Source: Elusimicrobia bacterium GWA2_69_24 (GTDB lineage: Bacteria; Elusimicrobiota; Elusimicrobia; UBA1565). From it: 64,000 nucleotides of DNA. A program made the position numbers and the translations under genes. Location: the NCBI GenBank assembly GCA_001799695.1, contig MGTY01000110.1, positions 1 through 64,000 of the forward strand. The letters are read 5' to 3'. Positions within the stretch are counted from its first letter, which is position 1; each line of letters opens with the position of its first letter. Of this stretch, positions 1,047 to 62,382 are shown in pieces. The notes under the pieces were generated by a model. That model was not told where the DNA came from, searched no databases, and saw nothing but the letters and a program-made list of their open reading frames with translations.

Positions 1047-1075
1047 TTGCGCTCCCTAAGCTTCCCTGTTAAGAT
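1047..1075 (+). promoter_or_regulatory. promoter of the 1085 gene
   Basis: TTGCGC (1047-1052), a 17-bp spacer and TAAGAT (1070-1075). The start codon is 9 nt after the -10 box, leaving almost no 5' leader. Confidence 0.5.
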
Positions 1076-1084
1076 TGTCTGATT

Positions 1085-1798
1085 ATGGACAAACCCGGTC
1101 CGAGTCCTTTGCGTTTCGAATACCGCTTCCACCTCCCGGACGGGGTGATCAAGACCTTTGAGGTCCGTCTGGACGGGGAGACCCTGGCGCTCCAGCATAA
1201 GCCTCGGGCGAGCTACCCGCATTGGGCGAAGCTGGAGTTCGGGCAATGCCCGGGCTGTCCCCTGCGCCCGGAGAAGCATCCCAATTGCCCCATCGCGATG
1301 AGCCTGGTGGACGTGCTGGAATTCTTCAAGGATTCCCTGTCGAGCGACGAGCTGCTGGTCGAGATCGTCACCGACGCCCGGACCTATTCGAAGCGCACGT
1401 CCCTGTCCAACGGCATCAGCGGGATCGTCGGCCTGCAGATGGCCACCAGCGGCTGTCCATTGTTCAACAAGCTCAAGCCCATGGCCCTGACCCATCTGCC
1501 CTTCGCCAACCTGCGCGAGACCATGTACCGCTATCTCGCCATGTACATGCTGGCTCAGCACTTCCTGGCCAAGAGGAAGAAGCCGACCGATATCGGGATG
1601 GAGAAGTTCACGGAGATGCTGGAGGGCCTGCGCGCGGCCAACCGGGCCTTCGTGAAGCGGCTTTACGAGGTCTGCCGCAAGGACGCCAGCCTCAATGCCA
1701 TCGTGCACCTGGACTGCTTCGCCGACAACACCGCCTTCTCCCTCAAGACCTTGGGCCTCGACGGGGTCGAGCGCCTGTTCGACGGCTACTTCGATTGA
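1085..1798 (+). CDS. conserved cysteine-motif protein of unknown function
   Basis: A 237-residue soluble protein without a signal peptide. Residues 54-71 contain four cysteines in the pattern CPGCPLRPEKHPNC, which looks like a small metal-binding knuckle. The rest is mainly helical (ALTHLPFANLRETMYRYLAM). It resembles a family of uncharacterised proteins seen in several phyla, but I cannot name it with certainty. ATG 1085 lies 9 nt after TAAGAT and no Shine-Dalgarno sequence is visible. It converges with the HEAT-repeat gene downstream. Confidence 0.7.
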   Translation: MDKPGPSPLRFEYRFHLPDGVIKTFEVRLDGETLALQHKPRASYPHWAKLEFGQCPGCPLRPEKHPNCPIAMSLVDVLEFFKDSLSSDELLVEIVTDARTYSKRTSLSNGISGIVGLQMATSGCPLFNKLKPMALTHLPFANLRETMYRYLAMYMLAQHFLAKRKKPTDIGMEKFTEMLEGLRAANRAFVKRLYEVCRKDASLNAIVHLDCFADNTAFSLKTLGLDGVERLFDGYFD

Positions 1799-1818
1799 CC
1801 CGATGCCCCCCATCCCGA

Positions 1819-1841
1819 CCTTCCCCCACTGGGGGGGAAGG
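1819..1841. terminator. GC-rich hairpin between convergent genes
   Basis: CCTTCCCCC (1819-1827) pairs with GGGGGAAGG (1833-1841). It lies between two convergent stop codons but has no T-tract on either side, so its role as a terminator is only probable. Confidence 0.35.
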
Positions 1842-1858
1842 GGGGTTAAGGAAGGGCC

Positions 1859-3292
1859 TTAATCTTTCTTATAGGATTCCAGCGCCTTGAGGGCTTTTTC
1901 CGTGCCGATCCGTTCGAGGGCGGTCGCGGCGCTGTAGCGCACGTCCGCGTTCTTGTCGCGCAGGGCCTTCTTGAGCAGGCGCACGGCCTGCTCCGCGCCC
2001 GGGCCGATGTTCCCCAGCGCCAGGGCGGAGCTGGAGCGGACCCGGTCGGAGCGATCCTTGAGGGATTTGATGAGGGGCTCCACGGCTTCCGTGGCCGGAG
2101 GCCGGACCTGGCCCAGGGCGTCGGCCGCCCGGAAGCGCAGGTTATCGTCGCCCTTCTGCAGGGCCTTGACCAGATCCGGCACCGCGTCGTGGGTCAAAAG
2201 CGTGGTCTTCCCTTCCAGCAGGATGGCCAGGGCCCGCACGGGGATGTCAGGCCGGGGGGCCGTGCCTTCCGGAGAAGGGAGGCCTTCCTGGTCGCCCAGC
2301 TGGTTGAGCGCTTCGACAGTGGATTTCGGCATCTGCCGGGTGACGGGGTGCAGGGACGGGTCGCCCCGCTCCGATTTTTCGGACCGGCTCAAACCCGGCT
2401 GGGAGCCGCCCAGGGACTCCGGTGAACCCTTGCGCGGGGCCGGTCCCGGGGCCGGCTCGGGCATCGTCGGCTCCGGGGTCAGCCGGGTGGGCCGCTGGAC
2501 CGGTTCCGTCGGCTGGGTCCAGACCGCGCGCACCGAGTCCGCCGGGGTCTTTTCCGGCGCGTCCGCCGTCTTTATGGCGCCGCCCAGCGGGATGTCCGGC
2601 TCCACGGGGAAAGGGCAGGCGAGGGTGGGTCGGTCTTCCACCGGCGGGGCCTTGGCCTTCTTCTCCTGGCGGTAGTGGGGGATCTCGAACACCGCTCCGG
2701 TGAAGCAGCCCTGGAAGGAGTTCTCCCGCATGCCGGTGGCGCAGCGGATGCCCTGGATCATGGTCCGAAAATCCTCGCCCCGGACGCGCATGCCTTTCTC
2801 CCAGGAGTACCCGTACCCGCAGGCCTTCTCCATGGAGCGGCGGAACACCGGGATGTCCGAAGAGACGCCCCGGAGCTTAGGCTCGCCGCCTCCCTGGAGG
2901 ATGATCAAGGACACGTCGGCGGTCTGGTTCAAGGTGACATCCCATAGGACGGGCTTGTAGGCGCTGAGCACGAGCACCGCGGGCTTCTTGGTCTTATAGA
3001 CGACGACGCGGACCGAGGTCTCGGGCATGTCCCTGCCGCTCTGGCCGGTCTGGGCCGGGAAGCTGCCCTCGTAGACCCCGACCACGTGCAGCTCGAACTG
3101 GGAGGATGGATCCCCCGGCAGGACGTAGTTCGAGGCATCGGCGCCCGCCGCGCCGCAGTTGAGCAGGTTGGGGTCGGAGGTGGCGAAATTCAGCTTGATG
3201 TCGGCGGCCGCGGCCTTGATCTTCTTGCAGGGGACCGTCTCCGCGCGGAGGGGGACCGCCAACAGGAATGGGAGGATGAGCGCGGTCCGCAT
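1859..3292 (-). CDS. exported HEAT-repeat protein
   Basis: 477 residues. A signal peptide (MRTALILPFLLAVPLRAE) is followed by a cysteine-containing domain (residues ~20-230), a Pro/Glu-rich linker (~230-330) and about three C-terminal HEAT/PBS-lyase-type repeats (VPDLVKALQKGDDNLRFRAA, VEPLIKSLKDRSDRVRSSSA and a third ending at the C-terminus). HEAT repeats normally act as protein-binding scaffolds, so an envelope scaffold is likely. The partner is unknown. ATG 3292 is preceded by GGAGGACAC and by a TTGACG-17-TATCCT promoter whose expected start site is only about 4 nt upstream. Confidence 0.75.
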   Translation of the reverse strand: MRTALILPFLLAVPLRAETVPCKKIKAAAADIKLNFATSDPNLLNCGAAGADASNYVLPGDPSSQFELHVVGVYEGSFPAQTGQSGRDMPETSVRVVVYKTKKPAVLVLSAYKPVLWDVTLNQTADVSLIILQGGGEPKLRGVSSDIPVFRRSMEKACGYGYSWEKGMRVRGEDFRTMIQGIRCATGMRENSFQGCFTGAVFEIPHYRQEKKAKAPPVEDRPTLACPFPVEPDIPLGGAIKTADAPEKTPADSVRAVWTQPTEPVQRPTRLTPEPTMPEPAPGPAPRKGSPESLGGSQPGLSRSEKSERGDPSLHPVTRQMPKSTVEALNQLGDQEGLPSPEGTAPRPDIPVRALAILLEGKTTLLTHDAVPDLVKALQKGDDNLRFRAADALGQVRPPATEAVEPLIKSLKDRSDRVRSSSALALGNIGPGAEQAVRLLKKALRDKNADVRYSAATALERIGTEKALKALESYKKD

Positions 3293-3302
3293 GTGTCCTC
3301 CG

Positions 3303-3331
3303 AGGATAGCACGCAATCTCCGCCGCGTCAA
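3303..3331 (-). promoter_or_regulatory. promoter of the HEAT-repeat gene
   Basis: On the minus strand TTGACG (3326-3331), a 17-bp spacer and TATCCT (3303-3308). Expected initiation is near 3296, just before the start codon at 3292. It is back to back with the plus-strand promoter at 3335. Confidence 0.6.
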
Positions 3332-3334
3332 ATC

Positions 3335-3364
3335 TTGACAGGGAGGGGGGAGGGGTCACATACT
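3335..3364 (+). promoter_or_regulatory. promoter of the 3371 lipoprotein
   Basis: Exact TTGACA (3335-3340), an 18-bp spacer and CATACT (3359-3364). ATG follows after 6 nt, which predicts a leaderless mRNA. Confidence 0.6.
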
Positions 3365-3370
3365 AGTCGG

Positions 3371-3718
3371 ATGAAAATCCGCTCCGCCTGGCTGCCGTGC
3401 CTGTTGCTTCCGCTGATGGGCTGCGTCCTTCCTCAGGGTGGGAATCCCGGCGCGTCCGCGAACTTCGTCCAACGGCCCTATGCCGCGCCTCGTTCCGAGC
3501 CGGCCTGGGCGGACATCCCGACGATCCAAAGATGCCGGGCCGCTACCCGGCGAGATTCCGCCTTGAATGATTGCGGCGCGGTCTTCGGTTGCCTGGAATC
3601 CATGAGCCGGGCTGAATGCGTCCTCAAGATCGAGGAGTACCACCGGGACTTTGAGAAGAGGAAAGCTGCCTGGACGGAAGCCGATGAGAGAGCCGTCATG
3701 GAGGCCTGGAGCGAGTGA
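3371..3718 (+). CDS. small lipoprotein
   Basis: 115 residues with a lipoprotein signal (MKIRSAWLPCLLLPLMGC). The lipobox LMGC places the lipidated cysteine at residue 18. The mature part has four more cysteines (RCRAAT, NDCGAV, GCLES, AECVLK), which suggests disulfides. The C-terminus is helical and charged. No family is recognised. The start is set by the lipoprotein signal and by the promoter 6 nt upstream; there is no properly placed Shine-Dalgarno sequence. Confidence 0.7.
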   Translation: MKIRSAWLPCLLLPLMGCVLPQGGNPGASANFVQRPYAAPRSEPAWADIPTIQRCRAATRRDSALNDCGAVFGCLESMSRAECVLKIEEYHRDFEKRKAAWTEADERAVMEAWSE

Positions 3719-3761: not shown

Positions 3762-3790
3762 TTGCCCCTGTCGGGATTTTCGCCTATGCT
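3762..3790 (+). promoter_or_regulatory. promoter of the 3797 gene
   Basis: TTGCCC (3762-3767), a 17-bp spacer and TATGCT (3785-3790). GTG 3797 follows after 6 nt, which supports that start codon. Confidence 0.5.
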
Positions 3791-3796
3791 CTTGGG

Positions 3797-4165
3797 GTGG
3801 CCCGTTTGATGTCCACATTGGCGCTGACCCTCTTGGCCGCGACCGGCGCGGGCTGGGCGGCTGAGCTCCCGGCTCCCCGGCCGGCCGGGGACCACTTCGC
3901 GGCCATGAGCTGGGAGGAGTTCTCCCGGGACCGGGGTTTCTCCACGGGCATGCAAGCGTGCCCCAAGCTGGACCTGCTCTGCCGGCCGGTGCGCTGGGGG
4001 GACGCGGTCGAGTTCAAAGCCGCCGCCCCGCGCTTCCAGGAGAACGCCATCACCCTCCGCTTCGGGGCCCGGACCGAGCCGTCACCCTCGAAGATCGAGG
4101 TCCAGGTCGGCAGTTTCCTCAAGACCGCCCTTTTCGTCGCCGCCCTCGTCGCCTTCATCCTCTAG
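3797..4165 (+). CDS. exported protein with C-terminal membrane anchor
   Basis: 122 residues. The N-terminus (LMSTLALTLLAATGAGWAAE) is a signal peptide, and the C-terminus (FLKTALFVAALVAFIL) is a transmembrane helix ending at the stop codon, so the central ~80 residues should face the periplasm. Two cysteines (ACPKLDLLC) could bond. GTG 3797 is chosen because a promoter ends 6 nt upstream; ATG 3809 is the alternative. The family is unknown. Confidence 0.55.
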   Translation: MARLMSTLALTLLAATGAGWAAELPAPRPAGDHFAAMSWEEFSRDRGFSTGMQACPKLDLLCRPVRWGDAVEFKAAAPRFQENAITLRFGARTEPSPSKIEVQVGSFLKTALFVAALVAFIL

Positions 4166-4203
4166 CCCGGCATCCGCGCGGGCACATGATATATCATAGG
4201 CGC

Positions 4204-4863
4204 ATGAGACACTCTCTTTGCCTGGTCGCGGCGGTTCTGGCGAACTGGTCCATCGTGTCCTGCGCAGCCGTCGCCATGGCTGGGATGGAGAATCATCGGA
4301 CCTCCTGTCTGTCGGGGTCCGACCTCCGCGACATCGAGGTCCTCTCGGCCGGGGCGGGCTGCGAGCTGGCCTACAGCAAATCCCTCAAGACCACGGTCGT
4401 GGCCAGCGCCAGGCAGGGTGATGCCTATTGCGACGCCGCGCGGCAGCGCATCGTCGCGAAGCTGGAGCGGGCCGGTTTTTACTGCGTGGCCGACAGCGCC
4501 GCCGAGGCGATGCCGTATGCCATGGACAAGCTCTATCGGAGCCGCCTCCTGACCCTGCGCGCATTCGTCCTGATATTCCGCGACGAACACAAAGGGGCCT
4601 ATCCCCGGAAGCTTCAAGAGCTGGCGCCGGAATACCACTCGGCGCCCATCGGCATCATGAGGACGGGGGCGCACCCTCCGACGATGGAGGTTTCGGCGTA
4701 CGACGGCTCGGTCTGCTCCGCCGACGGGAAGCTGGATCGCTCCAGGGTCCGGGACACGGGCGGTTGGGGCTACGTCGGCGACCCGGCGGCTTCCTGCGCG
4801 GGAACCGTCTTCATCGACTGCACGCACACGGATTCCGAAGGCAAGGTCTGGGCGGCTTACTGA
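4204..4863 (+). CDS. exported protein with pseudopilin-like C-terminal domain
   Basis: 219 residues. An N-terminal hydrophobic segment (HSLCLVAAVLANWSIVSCA) could be a lipoprotein or secretory signal. Residues ~35-95 form a cysteine-containing domain. Residues ~100-219 resemble the globular part of type IV pilin/PulG-like proteins: RAFVLIFRDEHKGAYPRKLQ, then GGWGYVGDP and the ending CTHTDSEGKVW. The methylated prepilin N-terminal helix is absent, so this is probably not a filament subunit. TATCAT ends 6 nt before ATG 4204, and the upstream in-frame ATG 4186 overlaps that box. It precedes the methyltransferase by 17 nt. Confidence 0.6.
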   Translation: MRHSLCLVAAVLANWSIVSCAAVAMAGMENHRTSCLSGSDLRDIEVLSAGAGCELAYSKSLKTTVVASARQGDAYCDAARQRIVAKLERAGFYCVADSAAEAMPYAMDKLYRSRLLTLRAFVLIFRDEHKGAYPRKLQELAPEYHSAPIGIMRTGAHPPTMEVSAYDGSVCSADGKLDRSRVRDTGGWGYVGDPAASCAGTVFIDCTHTDSEGKVWAAY

Positions 4864-5663: not shown

Positions 5664-5792
5664 GGACCCCGGCCTTCGCCGGGGTGACGGCTGGCGCCTG
5701 GACCGCGGCCTTCGCCGGGGTGACGGCTGGCGCCTGGACCGCGGCCTTCGCCGGGGTGACGAATGTGATTGGGCTTATGCCTCACCACCTAG
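5664..5792. repeat. 36-bp tandem repeat array (3 units)
   Basis: Three 36-bp units, each with a CCCCGGCCTTCGCCGGGG-type hairpin, end in GTGACGAATGTGATTGGGCTTATGCCTCA. They match the arrays near 38.1-38.7 kb. The array directly abuts palindrome copy A and overlaps the stop codon of the next minus-strand gene. Confidence 0.8.
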
Positions 5793-7630: not shown

Positions 7631-8269
7631 TCAGTAGACGGGCTTGTAGTCGGTGTAGTTCTGCAGATACCAGATGACGAAGCGCTTTTCGTCACGCTCA
7701 AGACCCGGAGCGAGCTGGAACTGCCAGCTATAGCCTGACGCGCTGCCCTTGTTCTTGAAGATATAGGAGGTCAAGGACGTCTTCTTCGCCGGCAAGGCCT
7801 CCTCCAGGCAACGGGCGGCTTGGGCCGCGTCGGCCGAAACGAGCTGGCGGTAGAGCTCGGGTGTGGGCATAGCCCTGAGGGCGGCGAAATCCAAGACGAC
7901 GGGGGCCGCCGCGGGCGCGGGCTGCGCGGCGGCCGCGCCAGGACCGCAGTCGAAAACGATCAGCCAGTAGTTCTCCTCGGAATTCTGGACCGAGAACCCG
8001 TACTCGCCCGCGGGTACCACATCAGCGCCCGCTTCCAAGACGCGGTAGGGTCCCTCCGTGACCACATGATGGGGCCCTGAACAGTAGGAATCCATGAGTT
8101 TCTGAGCGCCTTCGCGGCTGCTCTGGCGGGCCGCGCCGCCGCCCGCGCCCGCGTAGCGGACGATCCCGCCCTTGGGCTGCCGCGTGGAGGCGTACAGCTG
8201 GGAGCGGCCGGAGACGCAGCCGGCCAGGCAGAAGGTCGAAGCGCACAAGGCCGCGAGCTTCATCTTCAT
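7631..8269 (-). CDS. lipoprotein of unknown function
   Basis: About 212 residues. The signal MKMKLAALCASTFCLAGC has the lipobox LAGC. The mature N-terminal part (~residues 35-90) has SYCSGPHHVVTEGPY, a pattern common in small bacterial lipoproteins. An Ala/Pro linker and an acidic, aromatic C-terminal domain (WYLQNYTDYKPVY) follow. The start is uncertain among ATGs 8278, 8269 and 8263. I use 8269 because TAGTAT (8280-8285) predicts transcription starting near 8273. The family is not recognised. Confidence 0.65.
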   Translation of the reverse strand: MKMKLAALCASTFCLAGCVSGRSQLYASTRQPKGGIVRYAGAGGGAARQSSREGAQKLMDSYCSGPHHVVTEGPYRVLEAGADVVPAGEYGFSVQNSEENYWLIVFDCGPGAAAAQPAPAAAPVVLDFAALRAMPTPELYRQLVSADAAQAARCLEEALPAKKTSLTSYIFKNKGSASGYSWQFQLAPGLERDEKRFVIWYLQNYTDYKPVY

Positions 8270-8340
8270 CCCGTTCATGATACTACATGGCAGCGGGGCA
8301 TCTTTCAGCTCCTGAGGCATCGCCGGCTGGGTCATGGGCC

Positions 8341-8519: not shown

Positions 8520-8558
8520 ATCCTTCCGACGGGGCCGCGGTTTGCTAGAATAGGGTTG

Positions 8559-9059
8559 ATGCGGCCCGTAGACGACTTCATCCGGAACCATCCCATCTTC
8601 CAGGACTTCCGGCCCGACCATCTCGAGCTGGTGACCTCCGTGGCCGAGGAGATGCGCTTCACCCGCGACCAGTACCTCCTGCGCCAGGGGCAGGGCGCCG
8701 AGCGCTTCTTCATCATCCGCAAAGGGCTGGTGCGCATCGAGCTCCTCTCGAAAGAAGGGGAAACCATCCCCATCCAGGAGGTCGGGCCGGGGGACCTGCT
8801 GGGCTGGTCCTGGCTCCTGCCGCCCTACAAGTGGGGCTTCGACGCGCGCGCGGCGGAGACCACGCTGGCCCTGGTCTTCGACGGGGCGAGCCTGCGCAAG
8901 AAGTGCGAGCAGAACTTCGAGTTCGGCTTCCGCTTCCTTCAGGTCATCAGCATGGCCCTCTCCCGGCGACTGGACGTCACACGCGCGCACCTGCTGGAGT
9001 ACTACTCCCAGAGGCCGCACCCCTGGGACGGCGATGACCGGCGTTCCGCCCCGGATTGA
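8559..9059 (+). CDS. cyclic-nucleotide-binding-domain protein
   Basis: 166 residues forming one cNMP-binding fold of the Crp/Fnr type: HPIFQDFRPDHLELV, a beta-roll with FFIIRKGLVRIE and the loop EVGPGDLLGWSWLLPPY. The C-terminal helix (SMALSRRLDVTRAHLLE) follows, but there is no helix-turn-helix, so it is not a DNA-binding regulator by itself. It may sense a ligand or be a degenerate family member. ATG 8559 follows TAGAAT by 7 nt. It overlaps the YggU gene by 26 nt. Confidence 0.8.
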   Translation: MRPVDDFIRNHPIFQDFRPDHLELVTSVAEEMRFTRDQYLLRQGQGAERFFIIRKGLVRIELLSKEGETIPIQEVGPGDLLGWSWLLPPYKWGFDARAAETTLALVFDGASLRKKCEQNFEFGFRFLQVISMALSRRLDVTRAHLLEYYSQRPHPWDGDDRRSAPD

Positions 9060-9943: not shown

Positions 9944-11161
9944 CTAGCTGCGCCCGGGTTTCCCGGTAGGGCTCAGCATCCGCAGGGTCAGGCCGAGGAA
10001 GGCGTTCCAGACTTCGGGTGAGAATCGGAGGTCGGCATCCATCGACATGATGGATACGGCCTTCTCCCAGGTCATGCCCTGCCGGTAAGGACGGTGCTCC
10101 ATCAACGCGTCGAAGATGTCCGCGACGGCTGTGATCCGCGCTTCCAGCGGGATGTCCGTGCCGCGCAGCTTCCTCGGATAGCCTTTCCCGTCGTAGCGCT
10201 CATGATGGTTCAAGGCCACGGATATCGCGAGCTCCCTCAGCCCCTCGGGGAGGTGGGCGCGAGGGTAGAGCTTGCGGGCGCCGATGCTCGCGTGAGCCTC
10301 CATGACCTGGCGCTCCTCCGCACTGAGTTTCCCCGGCTTCTTGACCGTCTGGAGCACGTCCGCGCGCATCTTGCCGAGGTCATGGAAGGCGGCGGCCCAG
10401 GACAACCGGGCGGCGTAGTCCCGCGGGAGGCCCAGCTCCAGGGCCAGCATCCCCGAGAGGAGCCCGACCCGGACCATGTGCGAATAGGTGTCGGGATCGC
10501 CTCGGCGGATGCGCTCGAGCAGGGCGTTGCGGGCCGCGAGCCGCAGCCGTTCCCTCGGCGAGCTCAGGGACTGGGGTTCGGAGGACATCAGGTGCCAGGA
10601 ATCCTCGAGGAGGGCGGCGTAGCGCGCGTCCTGGATGTGGGCGTCTTCGTAGACCTGCGGCTCGAATCTGTCGTTGACGAGGGTATCGATGAGGCTGCCG
10701 ACCGAGCCCCCTCCGTCGAAAAACTCCGAGAGCTCCGCCTGCCTGCCCGAGGACCCCGCGCCCAGATCCCGGGATTCGCGCTTCCACCGGGAGACCACCG
10801 GCAGCTCCTGGTCGAAAGCGGTCGTATTGCGGGCCGGTGCGGCCCCGCCCCGGATGGACGGCGCGGCAGCCTGCGGCGACGCGGCCGCCGTCGGCCTGAC
10901 CGCGGGGGACTCGGGCAGGGAAGGGAGGCTCACGGCGGGCAGGGCCAGGGAGGGGGAGGAGAGGAGAGGCTGGGGGAGGGTCGTGCCCGGCAGCGAGCCC
11001 GGCGCGGCGGACCCCGTCAAGCCCGCGAGGGGGGTCCCCAGCGGAGCGGAGACGAAGGGGGTCTGGATGACCTGCGCGAAGGGGGATGCGGGGAGGGCGA
11101 GCGCCAGGATGAGCGGCAGGAACGGCCTGGAGAACGCGGGCGCGCGCCTAATGTCATCCAT
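9944..11161 (-). CDS. exported HD-GYP domain protein
   Basis: 405 residues. The N-terminus (FLPLILALALPASPFAQ) is a signal peptide, followed by a ~90-residue Pro/Ala/Leu-rich low-complexity region. The C-terminal half (~residues 215-390) is an HD-GYP domain with AAFHDLGKMR, NHHERYDGKGYP and DIFDALMEHRPYR. HD-GYP enzymes hydrolyse cyclic di-GMP in the cytosol, so a secreted copy without a receiver domain is odd. Its substrate may differ. It is the last gene of the minus-strand block. TATATA lies 7 nt before ATG 11161. Confidence 0.8.
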   Translation of the reverse strand: MDDIRRAPAFSRPFLPLILALALPASPFAQVIQTPFVSAPLGTPLAGLTGSAAPGSLPGTTLPQPLLSSPSLALPAVSLPSLPESPAVRPTAAASPQAAAPSIRGGAAPARNTTAFDQELPVVSRWKRESRDLGAGSSGRQAELSEFFDGGGSVGSLIDTLVNDRFEPQVYEDAHIQDARYAALLEDSWHLMSSEPQSLSSPRERLRLAARNALLERIRRGDPDTYSHMVRVGLLSGMLALELGLPRDYAARLSWAAAFHDLGKMRADVLQTVKKPGKLSAEERQVMEAHASIGARKLYPRAHLPEGLRELAISVALNHHERYDGKGYPRKLRGTDIPLEARITAVADIFDALMEHRPYRQGMTWEKAVSIMSMDADLRFSPEVWNAFLGLTLRMLSPTGKPGRS

Positions 11162-11168
11162 CGTTCAA

Positions 11169-11174
11169 TATATA
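11169..11174 (-). promoter_or_regulatory. -10 box before the HD-GYP gene
   Basis: TATATA on the minus strand, 7 nt before ATG 11161. There is no clear -35 box. The 89-bp gap after the upstream gene makes a separate promoter plausible. Confidence 0.35.
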
Positions 11175-15563: not shown

Positions 15564-16565
15564 CTATTTCTTCTTGCCCATGTATTGCTGGAGCATCTCC
15601 GGATCCACTCCGGCGGGCAGGTTCTTCATCAGGTCGGCGGAGTTCCCGCCGCCTTTCCCGCTCGGGGCCGATCCCTGGTCCTCCGCGCCGGGCTTATGGA
15701 AGCCGGTGAAGCCGCCTCCCGACATCTCCTTGAGCCGCGGGCGGGCGCCCCCCTTGGCCGCCGTGCGGGAGCCGGGAGGACCGGCCTCGGCCGGCGGGGC
15801 GCCGGCTTCCAGTCCGCAGTAGGCGAAGAACTTGGCCGGGAGGCCGGCCGGGCTCCCGTAGTAGCTGACGAGCTTGGCGAAGAACTCGTCCTTTCCCTTC
15901 TCCTCGAAGACCCGCTGGATCAGGGGGCCGTTCTGTCTGTCGGTGAGCAGGCGCTTGGTCAGGGCGCGCATGCCGCTGGCGGCGGAGTGCTTCTTCAGCA
16001 TCCGATGGAACGGCTTCGAAGTCCCGAGGAAGCGGATGAACTTGATGAAATCCTTCTCGCGGTCATAGCGGTCGGCGATGGCCTTCAGGTTCTCGTCCTC
16101 CAGGAACGCGTCGTACCAGTCCGGCTGCGCGGAGTGGACCGTGTCCACGACGAACTGCATGACCTCGCGGATGTCGCTGTTGGAGAGGCCCTGGCCGGGC
16201 CCCTTCCCTCCGGTCAGCCCCTGGATGACCCCTTTGGCGTCGCCCGCCGCGGCGGAGCCCTCGGCTTCCGGGGAAGCGCCGAAGCCGGCTCCGCCTCCGG
16301 GGCCCCCGACGGCGCCGGAGCCTTTCAGGAAGTTGAGGGACGAGCCTTGGACCGGGTCGGCCTTGAGACGGGCGGCCTCGTTGGAGGCCGGCGGGGCCGG
16401 CTCCGTGCTGGGCTGGCCGGCGGCGGGAAAATTGAAGGCGGCCGAGCCCGCCTGGTCGGCTTCGCGCAGGCTCTCGGGCTTGAGGAGCACGAGCAGGCCG
16501 TAGAGGAGTCCGATGGACCCTATGAGGAGGACGACTCCCAGGGCGATGAGGAGCTTCTTGTCCAT
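15564..16565 (-). CDS. membrane-anchored protein, paralog 1
   Basis: 333 residues. One N-terminal transmembrane helix (LLIALGVVLLIGSIGLLYGL) is followed by a Gly/Pro/Ala-rich linker and a helical domain (~residues 110-225: DIREVMQFVVDTVHSAQPDW, IRFLGTSKPFHRMLKK). A flexible tail ends in LPAGVDPEMLQQYMGKKK. The helical domain resembles the product of the next upstream gene. The promoter is TTGACA-17-CATACT, ending 6 nt before ATG 16565. Function is unknown. Confidence 0.65.
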   Translation of the reverse strand: MDKKLLIALGVVLLIGSIGLLYGLLVLLKPESLREADQAGSAAFNFPAAGQPSTEPAPPASNEAARLKADPVQGSSLNFLKGSGAVGGPGGGAGFGASPEAEGSAAAGDAKGVIQGLTGGKGPGQGLSNSDIREVMQFVVDTVHSAQPDWYDAFLEDENLKAIADRYDREKDFIKFIRFLGTSKPFHRMLKKHSAASGMRALTKRLLTDRQNGPLIQRVFEEKGKDEFFAKLVSYYGSPAGLPAKFFAYCGLEAGAPPAEAGPPGSRTAAKGGARPRLKEMSGGGFTGFHKPGAEDQGSAPSGKGGGNSADLMKNLPAGVDPEMLQQYMGKKK

Positions 16566-16571
16566 GAATGG

Positions 16572-16600
16572 AGTATGACTCTGATTTTCGACGCTGTCAA
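16572..16600 (-). promoter_or_regulatory. promoter of paralog 1
   Basis: On the minus strand exact TTGACA (16595-16600), a 17-bp spacer and CATACT (16572-16577). ATG follows 6 nt later, so a leaderless mRNA is predicted. It could drive the whole block down to 9944. Confidence 0.65.
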
Positions 16601-17480: not shown

Positions 17481-17499
17481 GCGGGCGATAATGTATAAT
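17474..17499 (+). promoter_or_regulatory. promoter of the barrel-LysM gene, divergent
   Basis: Exact TATAAT (17494-17499) lies 8 nt before ATG 17508. TTGTCA (17474-17479) is present but only 14 bp away, so the -35 contact may be weak or need an activator. It overlaps the minus-strand -35 box. Confidence 0.5.
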
Positions 17500-17507
17500 G
17501 CCCGCGC

Positions 17508-18881
17508 ATGACCGAGATATTCCACCGCCTTTTGCTGGTTTTTTCGATAATTTCCACCGGTGGTACGGCGTTCGGCGCCGTGTTCAACGACCTGGTCCCC
17601 GGGACGCGCGCCGCGGGCATGGGCATGGCCTATACGGCCGTTTCCGACGACCTGAACGCCCTGTACTACAATCCGGCCGGTCTGGCCAAGAGCCAGTTCG
17701 CCGAGTCCCGGGCGGAATTGGGACGCCAGGTCTCCCCGATCGGGATGGCGGGCTTCTATTCCTTCTCTTACGCCCGGCCGCTCCCCATCCTCCCCGGAGC
17801 CACGGTCGGGACCGGGCTGTTCCGGCTGCGGCAAGCGGACGTGGGAGAGAAGACGTCCTTCCTCCTGCATTTCTCCCATTCCCTGAACCTCCCCCAGTTC
17901 TATCTCCGCAAGCCTCTGCAGGTGGGAGGCAACGTGAAGCTGGTCCAGGTGAAGCCGCGGGACGGGCGCAACAAGGTCTCGCTCGGCGCCGACGCGGGCG
18001 TCCTTCTGGACCTGGGCTGGGACATCCGCACCGGCATCTCCCTGACCGACCTGACTCCGGACCTGGGCGTGGACAACCCCTCCCTCAACCTGGGAGTCTC
18101 CTACCGTTGGATGCGCCGCGTGACCGCCGCCGCGGACATCCGCGTGCGGCCGAACCTGACCCAGGTGTTCCCCGGCGTCGAAGTCGATTTCTTCCAGCGT
18201 CTCCTGCGCGTGCGGGTGGGGAAAGGCCTCCCGCTCGACGGCGTCAGCGGGATCGTCATGGGGGTCGGAGCCTACTTCTCCCCGCTGGTCGTCGATTTCG
18301 CGATGACCGTTCCGTGGAACGGGATCAACCGCCCCGGGGGCGGCTCCATGCTGTCGGTGGGCTACCGGTTCGGGGCTCCGGCATTCTATGGAAGGTTCGT
18401 GGGTTCGGCCGCCCGGGAGGCGGAAGACCTCCGGGCCGAGATCCTGTCTCTGGAGCAGAAGAAGCGGGACCTGGAGGCCGAGAAGTCCACGGCCGAGACC
18501 GAAAGGACCAGCATGGAAGGGCGGCTCCAGGCCGAGGAGGAGCGCCTCCGATCCGTCCAGGAGCAGATACGGACCCTCGAAGACCGGGCGGCCCGCAAGG
18601 AGTACGACGCGGGCCACCCGCAGCCCGAGAAGAAGCCGGAGCCGCCGCCCGCGCCCAAGCCCAAGGCGGCTCCCGCCGCTCCGGCCAAGCGGGAGACCCC
18701 GCATCAATTCCCCCTGCGGCACGCGGTGCAGCCCGGCGACACCCTGCGCGGGCTTTCCCAGAAGTATTACGGGGACCCCACGCTGTGGGAGACCCTCTAC
18801 GAGGCGAACCGGGACAAGGTCGAACGGGGCCTGCCCATCGAAGGGACGACGCTGCTCGTCCCCGAGCCGAAGCGGCGCTGA
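17508..18881 (+). CDS. outer-membrane barrel, coiled-coil and LysM fusion
   Basis: 457 residues. A signal peptide ends near GGTAFGA. Residues ~25-300 look like a PorV/UPF0164-type outer-membrane barrel (GTRAAGMGMAYTAVSDDLNA, LYYNPAGLA). Residues ~300-365 are a coiled coil (LEQKKRDLEAEKSTAETERT). A Pro/Lys/Ala spacer is followed by a C-terminal LysM domain (HAVQPGDTLRGLSQKYYGDP), which binds peptidoglycan. The fusion would tether a barrel to the wall. The start ATG 17508 lies 8 nt after TATAAT. The next gene overlaps its stop (TGATG). Confidence 0.8.
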   Translation: MTEIFHRLLLVFSIISTGGTAFGAVFNDLVPGTRAAGMGMAYTAVSDDLNALYYNPAGLAKSQFAESRAELGRQVSPIGMAGFYSFSYARPLPILPGATVGTGLFRLRQADVGEKTSFLLHFSHSLNLPQFYLRKPLQVGGNVKLVQVKPRDGRNKVSLGADAGVLLDLGWDIRTGISLTDLTPDLGVDNPSLNLGVSYRWMRRVTAAADIRVRPNLTQVFPGVEVDFFQRLLRVRVGKGLPLDGVSGIVMGVGAYFSPLVVDFAMTVPWNGINRPGGGSMLSVGYRFGAPAFYGRFVGSAAREAEDLRAEILSLEQKKRDLEAEKSTAETERTSMEGRLQAEEERLRSVQEQIRTLEDRAARKEYDAGHPQPEKKPEPPPAPKPKAAPAAPAKRETPHQFPLRHAVQPGDTLRGLSQKYYGDPTLWETLYEANRDKVERGLPIEGTTLLVPEPKRR

Positions 18882-27630: not shown

Positions 27631-27636
27631 TAAAAT
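27631..27636 (+). promoter_or_regulatory. -10 box of the AsmA gene
   Basis: TAAAAT lies 8 nt before ATG 27645. There is no -35 box at proper spacing. The short A/T-rich stretch stands out between GC-rich genes. Confidence 0.4.
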
Positions 27637-27644
27637 AGCGTCCC

Positions 27645-37753: not shown

Positions 37754-38020
37754 TTATGGCAAAAGCGGAGCCCGGCTGGCAAAGATCCGCACCCCTTCCC
37801 CATCGTTGCGGTAGACCAGCGCGAACAGGTCGGCGCGCTTGAGGTACGCCGCCAGGCGCCGCTGCTGGACGCTGGCGGGGTCGAGGGAGCCGTGGAGCAT
37901 GTTCTCGCTCAAAAGGAACCAGACAAGGTCATCGGCGTAGTGGCCGAAGTGGACGGCGTTGCAGCAGAGCAGGGCCAGGGCCCCGCCCGCCGCCAGCCAG
38001 ATCTGCTCTCCCCGGTTCAT
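37754..38020 (-). CDS. short membrane protein, possibly a truncated GT-C glycosyltransferase
   Basis: 88 residues. One transmembrane helix (IWLAAGGALALLCCNAVHFG) is followed by YADDLVWFLLSENMLHGSLD, which resembles the first loop of ArnT/PMT-type GT-C enzymes with its acidic pair. The reading frame then ends after 88 codons. Either it is the surviving N-terminal piece of a larger enzyme or a genuine small protein. The start follows TATACT (38030-38035) by 9 nt. The repeat island begins immediately upstream. Confidence 0.45.
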   Translation of the reverse strand: MNRGEQIWLAAGGALALLCCNAVHFGHYADDLVWFLLSENMLHGSLDPASVQQRRLAAYLKRADLFALVYRNDGEGVRIFASRAPLLP

Positions 38021-38029
38021 CCGAGGGCC

Positions 38030-38035
38030 AGTATA
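38030..38035 (-). promoter_or_regulatory. -10 box of the 38020 gene
   Basis: TATACT on the minus strand, 9 nt before ATG 38020. There is no convincing -35 box. Confidence 0.35.
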
Positions 38036-38246: not shown

Positions 38247-38288
38247 GGGTTGCCGGCTCATCCATTTTATCCAACGGCGGGCCCCCCG

Positions 38289-38308
38289 GACTGTGCCCGG
38301 GCACAGTC
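38289..38308. repeat. dispersed 20-bp palindrome, copy D
   Basis: Identical core to copies A-C, preceded by CCCCCCG and followed by GCCCAGAAGGTTCGGGCTAG. It lies between the two 36-bp-unit arrays. Confidence 0.75.
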
Positions 38309-38329
38309 GCCCAGAAGGTTCGGGCTAGC

Positions 38330-38657
38330 CGTCATACCGGCGAAAGCCGGTAGCCAGCGTGTGGAACGGATTAAAAAAACCCGTTCTGATGCCTGGACCC
38401 CGGCTTTCGCCGGGGTGACGGCCGGCGACTGGACCCCGGCTTTCGCCGGGGTGACGGCCGGCGACTGGACCCCGGCTTTTGCCGGGGTGACGGCCGGCGA
38501 CTGGACCCCGGCCTTCGCCGGGGTGACGGCCGGCGACTGGACCCCGGCTTTCGCCGGGGTGACGGCTGGCGACTGGACCCCGGCTTTCGCCGGGGTGACG
38601 GCCGGCGACTGGACCCCGGCCTTCGCCGGGGTGACGAATGCAATTGGACTTATGACT
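38330..38657. repeat. 36-bp tandem repeat array (7 units)
   Basis: The left arm (CCGGCGAAAGCCGG through AACCCGTTCTGATGCC) repeats that of the element at 38049. Seven 36-bp units follow, each with CCCCGGC-TTTC-GCCGGGG or a close variant. The right arm GAATGCAATTGGACTTATGACTC is the same as at 38214-38236. Units are nearly identical with no unique spacers. The long frame through the array is a by-product of the 36-bp period. Confidence 0.85.
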
Positions 38658-39432: not shown

Positions 39433-40407
39433 TCAGCGGATCGCTATCTGCAGCAGTTCGGAGAACCCGCCGTAGCGGTACCCGGCCACATGGGTCTTGG
39501 AGGCGATGAACTCCGCCGACACCTGGAGTTCGACCCGGCGGTGGAGGCGGATGATGATTCCGGCATCGAAATGGGGGACGACCTCGTGCCAGGACCTTTG
39601 CGGTTCGTATGTCGAGATAGTGTTGTAGTTGAAGAGATAGGCGTGATGTTCTCGGGAATTCAAGCGGTAGAGTCCGATGCCTCCCCCTAGGCGCAGACTC
39701 GCAGGGATGATCCCGATAAGGCTCCGCAGATATCCGAATTCGCCCAGTCCGATGAGGCGACCGCAGCTGGCTCGAAGGAACTTTATGTTCGCCCATTGGG
39801 TGTGGGTTTCGGAATCATTCGCGGAATAGATGGAAGAGCGTCGTTCGTGCGTGAACATACCGCCCTCAAGTCTCCCTTCCCATCGTTCGGAAGCCGGCCG
39901 GAAAGAGAAGCCGGCATCCCATCCCAGGACCTGGGATGGACGACGGGCTGCCCCCCCGAATACACCACCGGCCTTGTAGGCCCGCGCCACGAGTGGTTCC
40001 GCCAGCGGCTTCGGCGGCGGAGATGCAGCGGCTGCAGCCGAGGCCTGAGGCGGTTCAGGCGGGGGCTGGGGCGCGGCGACAGGGACATCCAGCGTTCCGG
40101 TCACGAACTCGATCTTCTGCAGGAGATCCGCTGAAGTGTGAAGCGGGCCTTGCGGCAGGTCCAACACGAGGCTGCCCGCCCGCCAGCGGCCCTCCAGCTT
40201 CGTCCCGTCCTTGAAGTGGAAGGTCACGGGAACGGATTCCGGGGTGGACTCGGTGATGGAGGAGATATTGACCGCGGTTGGAACGGTCGAAACGATGGGC
40301 GCTTCAGCCGAAGGCTGCGGAGCTTCCGTCGCAGGGGAGAGGCTTACTTCCGCCGACACCGGCAGCGCCAGAACGGCCAGGCAGATCCAAAGCATGGGGG
40401 CCCCCAT
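39433..40407 (-). CDS. exported beta-barrel-like protein
   Basis: 324 residues. A signal peptide (MLWICLAVLALPVSAEV), then a small beta domain (~residues 55-110: VTFHFKDGTKLEGRWRAGSL) and a Pro/Ala linker. The C-terminal ~180 residues have alternating aromatic strands (GLYRLNSREHHAYLFNYNTI, RVELQVSAEFIASKTHVAGY), consistent with an outer-membrane barrel. TATGTT (40414-40419) lies 6 nt before ATG 40407; ATG 40395 is an alternative. The family is unknown. Confidence 0.6.
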   Translation of the reverse strand: MGAPMLWICLAVLALPVSAEVSLSPATEAPQPSAEAPIVSTVPTAVNISSITESTPESVPVTFHFKDGTKLEGRWRAGSLVLDLPQGPLHTSADLLQKIEFVTGTLDVPVAAPQPPPEPPQASAAAAASPPPKPLAEPLVARAYKAGGVFGGAARRPSQVLGWDAGFSFRPASERWEGRLEGGMFTHERRSSIYSANDSETHTQWANIKFLRASCGRLIGLGEFGYLRSLIGIIPASLRLGGGIGLYRLNSREHHAYLFNYNTISTYEPQRSWHEVVPHFDAGIIIRLHRRVELQVSAEFIASKTHVAGYRYGGFSELLQIAIR

Positions 40408-40413
40408 GCCCGC

Positions 40414-40419
40414 AACATA
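40414..40419 (-). promoter_or_regulatory. -10 box of the 40407 gene
   Basis: TATGTT on the minus strand, 6 nt before ATG 40407. There is no clear -35 box. Confidence 0.3.
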
Positions 40420-42914: not shown

Positions 42915-42920
42915 TATACT
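42915..42920 (+). promoter_or_regulatory. -10 box of the wall operon
   Basis: TATACT lies 7 nt before ATG 42928. The preceding A-rich stretch (GGAAAAAACGG) is the only low-GC feature. There is no good -35 box. It would drive mtgA to the MepK-like gene. Confidence 0.45.
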
Positions 42921-42927
42921 GGACGCT

Positions 42928-43698
42928 ATGGCCGGGAGGACTTTCTTCTGGGTGGGAACCGTGCTGCTGGCCTCGGCGCTGGGGGTACTCGGGTATTGGG
43001 CCTGGCTGCCGGACGTGTCGGAACTGGGCGGGCGGAACCCCATGGCCACCCAATACGTGAAGCTGTTCGTCCGCCGCACCCTGCGCAAGGGGGAGCGCCC
43101 CGCGGTCGCCATGAAGTGGGTGCCGCTCGAGCGCATATCGCCCTATCTTCGGGCCAGCGTCCTCATCGCCGAGGACGACCGGTTCTACCAGCACAAGGGG
43201 GTGGACTGGCACGCCCTGGAGGAGGCCATGGACTACAACCTCCGCAACCGCCGCTGGGCCCGCGGCGCGAGCACCATCACCCAGCAGGTGGCCCGGAACA
43301 TCTTCCTCTCGCCCTCGCGGAGCCTCGGCCGCAAGGTCCGGGAGGTCCTCATCGCGCGGCATATGGAGCGCTGTCTGGGCAAGGACCGCATCCTGGAGAT
43401 CTACCTGAACATCGTGGAATGGGGGAAGGGAGTTTTCGGCGCCGAGGCGGCCAGCCAGGCCTATTTCCATAAGGCCGCGGCCGACCTCACCGCCGAGGAG
43501 GCGGTGTCTTTGGCGGCGGCCCTTCCGAGTCCGTATGAGCGCAATCCGGCCCTTCCTCCCGACGAGCGGATGAACCGTTTGCGCCAGGTCTACCTGGAAA
43601 GACTGGAGAAAGCGCTGCCGCGAGGAATAAAGCTGGATTCCTCAGCGCAAATTGAAGATAATACGGGACCTGCGCCGGACGGGGCGGATGATGATTGA
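42928..43698 (+). CDS. mtgA: monofunctional peptidoglycan glycosyltransferase
   Basis: 256 residues. One N-terminal membrane anchor ([20 protein letters not shown]) and a GT51 domain polymerising lipid II. The catalytic Glu motif is [43 protein letters not shown] and [18 protein letters not shown] follow. There is no transpeptidase domain. It overlaps mreB by 11 nt, tying wall polymerisation to the elongation cytoskeleton. Confidence 0.92.
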
Positions 43699-50118: not shown

Positions 50119-50124
50119 TATCCT
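50119..50124 (+). promoter_or_regulatory. -10 box of the 50134 gene
   Basis: TATCCT ends 9 nt before GTG 50134. No clear -35 box is present. Confidence 0.3.
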
Positions 50125-50133
50125 CTTGGTCGA

Positions 50134-50952
50134 GTGAAAATATTGATGCGGCGCAGACCCTGGGGCGTGGCGGTGCTGGTCGGCGTGATGTCCGCCGGCT
50201 GGGGGGGCATGCGCGCTCAGGACAAGACCCGGGATACAGGTCCGCCCGCGGGCCGGGAGCTCATCGACTGGGTCCCCATCTCCAGCGGCACCTTCCTGAT
50301 GGGCGCGGAAGACGCGGGCTTGGAGGAGCGGCCCGTCCATCGCGTGGCGATGCCGGCTTTCGAGATCGCCCGGACGCCCGTCACATTCAAACAGTATTCC
50401 GCCTGCGTCGCGGCCGGAGCCTGCCTGCCGGTCCATGACTGCGCGCCCGCCATGTTCCTGGGACCCGAACAGCCGGTCGTCTGCGTCGATTGGCCGCAGG
50501 CCAAGGCCTTCTCCGAGTGGGTGGGGGGGCGGCTTCCCACGGAGGCGGAGTGGGAATACGCGGCCCGCAGCGGCGGTAAGGAGCGGCAGTATCCGTGGGG
50601 GGACGACCCCGCGACCTGCTCGCGCGCGGTCCTATCCACCAGCCTGGTGAAGGGCTGCGGGCGCAGCGCCACCTGGCCGGTGTGCGCGCTGCCCGACGGG
50701 AACACGGAGCAGGGGCTCTGCGACATGGCGGGGAACGTCTGGCAATGGACCGCGGACTGGCATCACGGCTCCTACGAGGGCGCTCCGGCGGATGGGAGCG
50801 CGTGGGTGAATCCGCCGGGCACCGAGCGCGTGGTCCGGGGCGGGTCCTGGGACCGGCGCGCCCGGCGCGTCCGCACCAGGTCCCGCATCAGCGCGTTTCC
50901 CAGCCTTGCGCTCACGACCACGGGGTTCCGGCCGGTGCGCGTCAGGCGTTAG
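50134..50952 (+). CDS. exported sulfatase-modifying-factor-like protein
   Basis: 272 residues. A signal peptide (RRRPWGVAVLVGVMSAGWGG) precedes an FGE/SUMF1 fold: WVPISSGTFLMGAEDAG, MPAFEIARTPVTFKQY, GGRLPTEAEWEYAARSGG, GNVWQWTADW, VVRGGSWDRR and TTGFRPVR. The active-site cysteines of formylglycine-generating enzymes are not at the expected place (GNVWQWT lacks Cys), so it is more likely a binding or other member of the superfamily. Start GTG 50134 follows TATCCT; ATG 50146 is the alternative. Its stop codon lies in the MITE terminal repeat. Confidence 0.75.
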   Translation: MKILMRRRPWGVAVLVGVMSAGWGGMRAQDKTRDTGPPAGRELIDWVPISSGTFLMGAEDAGLEERPVHRVAMPAFEIARTPVTFKQYSACVAAGACLPVHDCAPAMFLGPEQPVVCVDWPQAKAFSEWVGGRLPTEAEWEYAARSGGKERQYPWGDDPATCSRAVLSTSLVKGCGRSATWPVCALPDGNTEQGLCDMAGNVWQWTADWHHGSYEGAPADGSAWVNPPGTERVVRGGSWDRRARRVRTRSRISAFPSLALTTTGFRPVRVRR

Positions 50953-57316: not shown

Positions 57317-57322
57317 TACAAT
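57317..57322 (+). promoter_or_regulatory. -10 box of the thioredoxin-like gene
   Basis: TACAAT lies 8 nt before ATG 57331 and directly after the terminator. No -35 box can be separated from the terminator hairpin. Confidence 0.4.
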
Positions 57323-57330
57323 CAATGACC

Positions 57331-57807
57331 ATGAAGGCGTTTTTGCTCGCTCTCGCGGTCGTCGGTCTCTGCTGGGCCGGTCCCCGGCGCCAGGCGCCAG
57401 CGGACGAGGACATCCCGCGCGACAGCGCGACGGGGAGCCTGCAGAACTTCCAGAGCGCCCGCTTCCGCAGCCTGCAGGCGGAAGGCCGGCTGGTATTGCT
57501 CCAGTTCACCTCCGCCGGCAGCGAAATCTGCTCCGTCCAGGAGAAGTCCCTCGAGCGTCTGGCGCAGTCCGGGGACAAGACCACGCCGGTGTTCTTTCAG
57601 GTCGATTCCGACGCGGAAGAGTCGCTGCGCACGCAATATAAGGCCACGCCCAGCACCCTGCTGCTCTTCCGGGGGTCCCAGCTCATCGGGCGGGTGGCCG
57701 GGGTCCATACGGAAGAGGACATCCGGCGCTTCCTGCGCGACACGCTCTCCGCGCTGCGCGGCCAGCCCAAGCTCCGCGCCAAGAGACCCCATCGGCCGAA
57801 GCGATGA
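57331..57807 (+). CDS. exported thioredoxin-fold protein lacking CXXC
   Basis: 158 residues. Signal peptide (AFLLALAVVGLCWAG) and a thioredoxin fold: LVLLQFTSAGSEICSVQEKS at the active site, VFFQVDSDAEESLRTQYKAT and the cis-Pro region ATPSTLLLF. The first cysteine of the CXXC is replaced by serine (SEIC; Cys67 remains), so it cannot do dithiol-disulfide exchange. Monothiol or isomerase-like roles are possible. It overlaps the next gene by 4 nt. Confidence 0.75.
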   Translation: MKAFLLALAVVGLCWAGPRRQAPADEDIPRDSATGSLQNFQSARFRSLQAEGRLVLLQFTSAGSEICSVQEKSLERLAQSGDKTTPVFFQVDSDAEESLRTQYKATPSTLLLFRGSQLIGRVAGVHTEEDIRRFLRDTLSALRGQPKLRAKRPHRPKR

Positions 57808-60918: not shown

Positions 60919-60926
60919 GGGGCGGG

Positions 60927-61493
60927 TCAGCGGAAGGAGAGGGAGGAGACGAAGGCGTCGAGGATGTCCTTGCCCTTGGCCGGGAGCTGGCCGGGGGATA
61001 CGAGCTCGACCACGAACGCGACCCCGTCGCGCTCGAAGCAGAAGAAACGCTGGGTGTAGCCGCCCGTCGCGTAGCTGCGCTTCATGCTGACGAGGAAGCC
61101 GGGGCGGGAGCCCATGGAGGCCTGGGCCATCTGGAGGTCCTTCACGTTGGAGGCTTTCTTGGCCGGCTTGTAGATCTTCTCGTCGATCAGCCACTTCAGC
61201 TTGTTGCCGCCCTTCAGGGCGTGGGCCCGCACGGTCAAGGTGGATTCCTCCCGGGAGGTCCGGGAGCGGCCGACCAGGGTCAGGATCTTCCCGGGGCCGG
61301 GCTGTTCCTCGGTGATGAGGAATCCCGGTGGGGCGACGCAGGTGAAGCCGTAGCCCGGGTGGCTGCAGGGGGTATCGGCGCCCAGGATCGGGGCGGCGGA
61401 GGCGGGCTGCTGGGCGGGCGGGCGCTGGACGAGCTGGGGGGCCTTGGGATTGCAGCCCGAAAGGAGCAGCAGGGTCACGAGGAGCGCGGGCAC
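60927..61493 (-). CDS. lipoprotein of unknown function
   Basis: 188 residues from GTG 61493 (or 194 from GTG 61511). The lipobox is LLSGC within VPALLVTLLLLSGC. The mature part has a C-x7-C pair (PCSHPGYGFTCVAPPGF) and then a mixed domain ending FVVELVSPGQLPAKGKDILD, FVSSLSFR, which recalls small PsbP/DUF1795-like lipoprotein folds. GTG 61493 overlaps the ompA-like stop (TAGTG), which suggests coupled translation. Confidence 0.65.
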   Translation of the reverse strand: MPALLVTLLLLSGCNPKAPQLVQRPPAQQPASAAPILGADTPCSHPGYGFTCVAPPGFLITEEQPGPGKILTLVGRSRTSREESTLTVRAHALKGGNKLKWLIDEKIYKPAKKASNVKDLQMAQASMGSRPGFLVSMKRSYATGGYTQRFFCFERDGVAFVVELVSPGQLPAKGKDILDAFVSSLSFR

Positions 61494-62008
61494 TAGAACA
61501 CCGATTCCCACCAGCGCTTAGTGGGGATGAACTCCACGCGCCGGTTCTTCTTGCGGTTCTCCTCGCAGTCGTTGGGGGCGATGGGCTTGCGTTTGCCGAA
61601 GCCCTTGGCCTTGATGTATTCGCCCATCACGCCGAGCTGGACCAGATAGGATTTGACGGCCTGGGCCCGCTTCTGGGAGAGCCAGAGGTTGTATTCGTCG
61701 CTGCCGACGTCGCAGGTGTGTCCGAAGACCATCAGCTTGAGGTCGGTGTGGCGGAACATGAGGTCGGCGACCATCTCGAGGGCGACCTTGGATTGGGGCT
61801 TCAGGACCGCCTTGTTGAACTCGAACTCGATGGGGGGGATCTCCTTGCGCTCGATCTTGCGCTGGAGCTCCTGGAACTCCTCCTCGGCCTGCTCCAGTTC
61901 GGCGGATTTCTCCTCTTCCTGATCGCGGGTGATGTCCAGCGGCTTTGCGCGCAGGGGGCTGATTCCGGCCAGGAGCAGGCCGGCGGAAAGGAGCAGGGTC
62001 GTCCGCAT
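61493..62008 (-). CDS. OmpA/Pal-domain protein
   Basis: 171 residues. A signal peptide (TTLLLSAGLLLAGISPLRA) is followed by a charged coiled-coil (EEEKSAELEQAEEEFQELQR) and an OmpA C-terminal peptidoglycan-binding domain: IEFEFNKAVLKPQSKVALE, VFGHTCDVGSDEYNLWLSQK, RAQAVKSYLVQLGV and NRKKNRRVEF. The binding Asp/Arg pair positions look intact. No lipobox is seen. A TGAACA-17-TACTCT promoter ends 6 nt before ATG 62008. Confidence 0.88.
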   Translation of the reverse strand: MRTTLLLSAGLLLAGISPLRAKPLDITRDQEEEKSAELEQAEEEFQELQRKIERKEIPPIEFEFNKAVLKPQSKVALEMVADLMFRHTDLKLMVFGHTCDVGSDEYNLWLSQKRAQAVKSYLVQLGVMGEYIKAKGFGKRKPIAPNDCEENRKKNRRVEFIPTKRWWESVF

Positions 62009-62014
62009 GGCTTC

Positions 62015-62043
62015 AGAGTAACAATCGACGGGGGTCCTGTTCA
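62015..62043 (-). promoter_or_regulatory. promoter of the OmpA-like gene
   Basis: On the minus strand TGAACA (62038-62043), a 17-bp spacer and TACTCT (62015-62020). ATG follows 6 nt later. Part overlaps the upstream region of tRNA-Arg, whose -10 is at 62060. Confidence 0.45.
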
Positions 62044-62059
62044 AGGGGCTCCAATGTGG

Positions 62060-62065
62060 TACAAT
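62060..62065 (+). promoter_or_regulatory. -10 box of tRNA-Arg
   Basis: TACAAT lies 18 bp before the mature tRNA-Arg 5' end. TGTTCA (62038-62043) is 16 bp upstream and is the same hexamer used by the divergent OmpA-like promoter. Confidence 0.5.
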
Positions 62066-62083
62066 GGACTCCTTCCATTTTAC

Positions 62084-62155
62084 GCGCCCATGGTGAAATG
62101 GATATCACGACAGCCTCCGGAGCTGTAAGTCTAGGTTCGATTCCTAGTGGGCGCA
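62084..62155 (+). tRNA. tRNA-Arg (anticodon CCG)
   Basis: Acceptor GCGCCCA/TGGGCGC, anticodon stem ACAGC/GCTGT with loop CTCCGGA (anticodon CCG), and T-arm CTAGGTTCGATTCCTAG. The discriminator is A. CCA is not encoded. Confidence 0.95.
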
Positions 62156-62163
62156 ATTCTTCC

Positions 62164-62346
62164 TCACCACCCTTCGAAGGCCCGGACTTCCCTGATGGCC
62201 GCCTGGCATTTGTCCGCCCGCATCTCAGGCGTGCAGTCGAAATAGGCGCCGCACCATTCGAGGTTCTTGCCCCAATGCGCGACGCAGCCCAGCGCAAGGA
62301 GGGTGAACGCCGCAGTCAAGGAGCACGACAGTCGGGTCTTTGGCAT
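62164..62346 (-). CDS. tiny lipoprotein
   Basis: 60 residues. MPKTRLSCSLTAAFTLLALGC gives a signal with lipobox ALGC. The mature 39 residues have three more cysteines (LEWCGAYFDC, DKCQAAI) that could form disulfides. The family is unknown. The start is well supported: an exact TTGACA-17-CATAAT promoter ends 7 nt before ATG 62346. It converges with tRNA-Arg. Confidence 0.7.
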   Translation of the reverse strand: MPKTRLSCSLTAAFTLLALGCVAHWGKNLEWCGAYFDCTPEMRADKCQAAIREVRAFEGW

Positions 62347-62353
62347 CCGGACT

Positions 62354-62382
62354 ATTATGAAAACAGGGCGGGGGTCTGTCAA
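62354..62382 (-). promoter_or_regulatory. near-consensus promoter of the tiny lipoprotein
   Basis: On the minus strand TTGACA (62377-62382), a 17-bp spacer and CATAAT (62354-62359). ATG 62346 follows 7 nt later. It is the clearest leaderless promoter in the window. Confidence 0.7.

Follow-up and report, generated by a model that had tools for sequence, protein, structure and literature searches.

Many genes of a GC-rich member of the Elusimicrobiota carry a promoter-like TANNNT box immediately before the start codon, and we are confident that leaderless sigma-70 initiation, at or near the start codon of many transcription units, is the best explanation. The window, the whole 64,000-nt stretch of DNA analyzed, comes from a 4.2-Mb draft genome (68% GC; class Elusimicrobia, order UBA1565), where it is contig C110. 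As we picture the mechanism, the housekeeping sigma-70 RNA polymerase would begin transcription on the first start-codon base, or no more than about 3 nt away, in at least 20–26% of transcription units. The TANNNT -10 element, in some cases preceded at 17 bp by a -35 resembling TTGACA, would end 6–9 nt before ATG or GTG, and the mRNA would therefore have neither a 5′ leader nor a Shine-Dalgarno (SD) sequence. The ribosome would then recognize the 5′-terminal AUG or GUG directly with initiator tRNA. Intra-operon genes and many other first genes would instead initiate from an SD, the anti-SD being intact. Sequence-level support covers the promoter elements, their spacing, the start-codon preference, the scarcity of SD motifs, and the spread in UBA1565; from these we infer transcription start at the start codon and direct recognition by the ribosome.

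Genes were called in 1.41 Mb, about one third of the draft genome, with a purpose-built hexamer coding model that sets starts from coding potential only and leaves upstream sequence unused. We define the gap as the number of nucleotides between the last base of the -10 hexamer and the start codon. Counted per gene, TANNNT is present at a gap of 5–9 in 114 of 467 first-in-operon genes, compared with 20.3 ± 4.2 when dinucleotides are shuffled and 21.2 ± 4.2 when the shuffling is local. Counted as occurrences, the same genes give 117 against 33 expected from other offsets, and TANNNT ranks first of all 64 XYNNNZ patterns by enrichment. The window alone has 17 matches at gaps 6–9 among 33 first-in-operon genes, with about 5.7 expected. 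Intra-operon genes (n = 554) have a much smaller excess, 28 versus 5.3 expected, part of which may come from upstream stop codons. In a GC-rich genome, intergenic DNA that is A/T-rich might yield TANNNT by composition alone, and the background before first genes is indeed raised, at 6.65 per offset. However, the shuffles reach at most 35 and refute this account, the enrichment is position-specific, and the equally GC-rich Burkholderia has none; we give chance practically no credence. The original prediction of promoter-like boxes just before many starts therefore extends genome-wide, and the -10 peak over shuffled sequence that it called for is present. Position-shift and cross-validated PSSM estimates place the leaderless share of first genes at about 17–26%, which, extrapolated to the whole genome by size, would be some 250–350 leaderless transcription units.

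To characterize the boxes, 164 candidate genes were aligned on the hexamer; neither the -35 nor the extended -10 was used in choosing them. TTG is the most enriched upstream trimer and lies 23 nt before the -10 T, equivalent to a 17-bp spacer (25 of 164 genes versus 1.2 expected, ~20-fold). TGA and GAC are enriched in register with it, and the consensus of the box is TG-N-TATA(A/C)T, which includes an extended -10 TG. By these sequence features the hexamers act like the -10 of sigma-70 promoters.

Normally, about 6 nt separate the -10 hexamer from +1. Genes at gaps of 4, 5, 6, 7, 8, and 9 number 3, 6, 37, 31, 22, and 21, respectively, against the 6.65 background, and given that separation the cliff at gap 6 marks the point where the transcript would start downstream of the start codon. 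The distance peak is present for ATG and GTG starts only. At the peak there are 129 ATG starts versus 35 (3.7-fold) and 25 GTG starts versus 12 (2.0-fold), but TTG starts have no peak, 7 versus 11 (0.6-fold). A purine at +1, together with a need for AUG or GUG as the 5′ codon, would produce this pattern. SD-like 4-mers are found in 3.7% of the leaderless set, as opposed to 37% of the remaining first genes and 41% of genes inside operons, with a background rate of about 14%. The scarcity is partly mechanical, because any A/T-rich hexamer there leaves less room for an SD; with other patterns at that position the SD frequency is 0–28%.

A hexamer at the position of the ribosome-binding site, in genes where SD motifs are rare, could instead act in translation, as an unstructured A/T-rich ribosome site of the Bacteroidota kind. 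Such a role is very unlikely, as it conflicts with the constant 17-bp spacing of the TTG -35, the extended -10 TG, and the near restriction of the boxes to first-in-operon genes. GGAGG is also used elsewhere in the genome and the anti-SD is kept, with CCTCC intact in the 16S rRNA. The intra-operon SD frequency, well above background, differs from the general SD absence of Bacteroidota-type initiation. It is also conceivable that the starts are misassigned, so that the boxes belong to ordinary promoters, the genes have leaders and a true start farther downstream, and the first ATG is spurious. Start-calling is hard for proteins with signal peptides, and the coding-only calls sometimes favor a later start, by 24 nt at 1085 and by 72 nt at 17508. 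Yet the enrichment persists with starts set by coding score alone, the gap-6 cliff and the missing TTG peak are not expected around spurious codons, and the protein start of 8559 aligns with its orthologs at MRP. We consider misassignment very unlikely. Leaderless transcription is by far the best-supported reading of the promoter-proximal boxes on the sequence features: a 17-bp spacer to the -35, a sharp lower limit of 6 nt on the distance, ATG and GTG but not TTG, rare SD motifs, boxes mostly at first-in-operon genes, and a signal in a known leaderless organism with none in SD-led ones. Statistically, the evidence for a promoter-proximal -10 is very strong. The further step to leaderless translation would follow by analogy with experimentally studied groups.

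Candidate leaderless promoters in the window and one doubtful case (gap in nt; -35 spacing in bp where given)
Feature	Span	Strand	-35	-10	Gap	Gene or start	Remark
promoter + gene	1047..1798	+	TTGCGC 1047-1052	TAAGAT 1070-1075	9	gene 1085-1798	DUF6901
promoter + gene	3335..3718	+	TTGACA 3335-3340, 18 bp	CATACT 3359-3364	6	gene 3371-3718	lipobox-like N-terminus
promoter + gene	3762..4165	+	TTGCCC 3762-3767	TATGCT 3785-3790	6	GTG start 3797	
-10 + gene	4192..4863	+		TATCAT 4192-4197	6	gene 4204-4863	
-10 + gene	7631..8282	-		TATCAT 8277-8282	7	start 8269	lipobox-like N-terminus
extended -10 + gene	8546..9059	+		TGCTAGAAT, TAGAAT 8546-8551	7	gene 8559-9059	cNMP-binding
-10 + gene	9944..11172	-		TATATT 11167-11172	5	start 11161	HD-domain; borderline spacing
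promoter + gene	15564..16600	-	TTGACA 16595-16600, 17 bp	CATACT 16572-16577	6	start 16565	
-10 + gene	17494..18881	+		TATAAT 17494-17499	8	gene 17508-18881	
-10 + gene	27631..29924	+		TAAAAT 27631-27636	8	gene 27645-29924	AsmA/DUF748-like
-10 + gene	37754..38035	-		TATACT 38030-38035	9	start 38020	
-10 + gene	39433..40419	-		TATGTT 40414-40419	6	start 40407	TG at -15/-14
-10 + gene	42915..43698	+		TATACT 42915-42920	7	gene 42928-43698	transglycosylase
-10 + gene	50119..50952	+		TATCCT 50119-50124	9	GTG start 50134	FGE-sulfatase-like
extended -10 + gene	57317..57807	+		TGCTACAAT, TACAAT 57317-57322	8	ATG 57331	weak thioredoxin match
-10 + gene	61493..62043	-	-35-like element ~17-18 bp upstream	TACTCT 62015-62020	6	start 62008	OmpA-family
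promoter + gene	62164..62382	-	TTGACA 62377-62382, 17 bp	CATAAT 62354-62359	7	start 62346	small lipobox-like protein
doubtful promoter	1859..3331	-	TTGACG 3326-3331	TATCCT 3303-3308	10	start 3292	GGAGG before start

Eighteen starts in the window had been listed with boxes of the TANNNT type. Fourteen have an exact TANNNT at a gap of 5–9. Three more (3371, 16565, and 62346) carry CATANT with a perfect TTGACA and are the best promoters of the listed set. The remaining start, 3292, with its longer gap and an SD motif, is probably SD-led or mixed in initiation and a poor leaderless example. At 57331, an alternative ATG at 57325 would give a gap of only 2. The nearby genes named as SD-led (4881, 22990, 38670, 41109, and 56063) all have GGAGG or AGGAG, as claimed. 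The suggested over-representation of lipoproteins is not established, as the lipobox is not significantly enriched in the leaderless set (6.1% versus 3.3%, p = 0.16); crude signal peptides are found in 39% versus 26% (p = 0.0045, uncorrected). For annotation, gene callers that expect an SD, and the coding-only caller used here, misplace starts, for example at 1085, 4204, 17508, and 50134.

The same pipeline was applied to control genomes. Plasmid DNA of Deinococcus deserti, which is known for leaderless mRNAs, gave 15 versus 2.1, and the signal here is at least as strong as in that control. There was no peak in E. coli (4 versus 11.6) or Burkholderia (2 versus 3.5). Among relatives, one genome of the same family (G185) and one of the same order (G203) were positive, and a second of the same family (G189) was weaker. 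The signal was weak or absent in Elusimicrobium and Endomicrobium, the comparison genomes being, we take it, Elusimicrobium minutum for the class and Endomicrobium proavitum for the phylum. As a whole-genome proxy, we counted TTG-N20-TANNNT-N6-ATG against the same pattern with N16-ATG, using only the most complete genomes of the larger families. The count for order UBA1565 is 1,826 versus 430 sites in 54 genomes, with 332 versus 77 in the window's own family (8 genomes), 54 versus 19 in family f2, and 1,440 versus 334 in family f3 (43 genomes). Outside the order, family f15 of the same class (G178 and G179) has 56 versus 19; in the other families of the class the N6/N16 ratio is only 1.1–1.5, and in other classes it is 0.95. 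Within UBA1565, no excess was seen in genus g15 (G218, G219, and G220; 26 versus 23) or in G226 (13 versus 13), raising the possibility of secondary loss of leaderless-spaced promoters in these genomes. By these counts, the trait is essentially order-wide in UBA1565, with likely losses. A genome described previously, JAD_PAG50586_1, is likewise an Elusimicrobiota member of GTDB order UBA1565 (SILVA Lineage IV), with a GC content of 68.6% (PMC9476967).

Leaderless status is shared in 5 of 10 ortholog pairs versus 2 of 14, a difference that rests on few pairs (p = 0.085). The ortholog of 8559 in G189 (63% identity) has a different intergenic sequence with TAAAAT at gap 8. The same-order ortholog in L253 has its box ~28 nt upstream; a leader of ~20 nt is apparent for the f2 ortholog. 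Initiation mode appears to switch gene by gene while the genome-wide habit persists.

Leaderless genes led by TA boxes have been described for Mycobacterium tuberculosis among the Actinobacteria (Cortes 2013, PMC3898074). The resemblance lies in high GC, TANNNT ~6–9 nt before ATG or GTG, and coexisting SD-led genes. The Actinobacteria, however, are another phylum, the UBA1565 case is known from sequence, and bS21 is kept in UBA1565 but has no match in the Corynebacterium control. For Deinococcus-Thermus, a 2025 study showed by experiment that the ORF-adjacent TANNNT is the -10 of leaderless genes, and in D. radiodurans genes with the -10 motif make up about one third of genes (PMC12340547). 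Here too 5′-TANNNT-3′ lies a few nucleotides before ORFs at a specific spacing with an optional -35, but the lineage is unrelated, and the trait is phylum-wide there and concentrated in one order in Elusimicrobiota. The original prediction gave these two groups as the known ones. Both are, but leaderless genes have been predicted far more widely: in 207 of 953 bacterial genomes, which span many phyla, Elusimicrobia not among them, with TAnnnT as the high-GC form of the signal (Zheng 2011), and, according to the GeneMarkS-2 work as cited in PMC9581028, in 21.6% of bacterial species and up to 40% of transcripts (Lomsadze 2018). The leaderless genomes of that citation likewise mix leaderless with SD use, and Elusimicrobiota may or may not be included in it.

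Profile searches found bS21 (PF01165) in the genome studied here and in nearly all UBA1565 genomes, and not in the Thermus, Deinobacterium, and Corynebacterium controls. Loss of bS21 as a correlate of leaderless use is ruled out by its presence in the order, which in this respect departs from the actinobacterial and deinococcal type, linked to bS21 loss. Most of the Elusimicrobiota genomes searched have bS21, irrespective of leaderless use.

Full-text searches of the literature returned no paper on Elusimicrobiota with mapped starts or a report of leaderless transcription, in agreement with the earlier statement that it was not described in such organisms. The mechanism is known; as far as the searched literature goes, the novelty is how abundant it is in the UBA1565 lineage. 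We lean toward the view that leaderless transcription became a main route of gene expression in UBA1565 separately from Actinobacteria and Deinococcota, with the complete SD machinery and bS21 retained, and that the relatives of this order, Elusimicrobium in the same class and Endomicrobium in the phylum, stayed SD-led. If so, the phylum would be a natural experiment on gain and loss of leaderless expression. Since close relatives differ, a link to GC content, growth rate, or ribosome make-up could be tested within one phylum.

Two further features of the window were observed. Positions 48610-49926 on the minus strand encode a member of the sigma-70 family that has regions 2, 3, and 4 and is not the housekeeping RpoD, which lies on contig C84; Sigma70_r2 matches number 17 in the genome. 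A dispersed, intergenic repeat with the 19-bp core GGCCTTCGCCGGGGTGACG is present in 14 copies, where 0.11 would be expected by chance, in two clusters (5671-5761 and 38088-38636) with a mostly 36-bp period.
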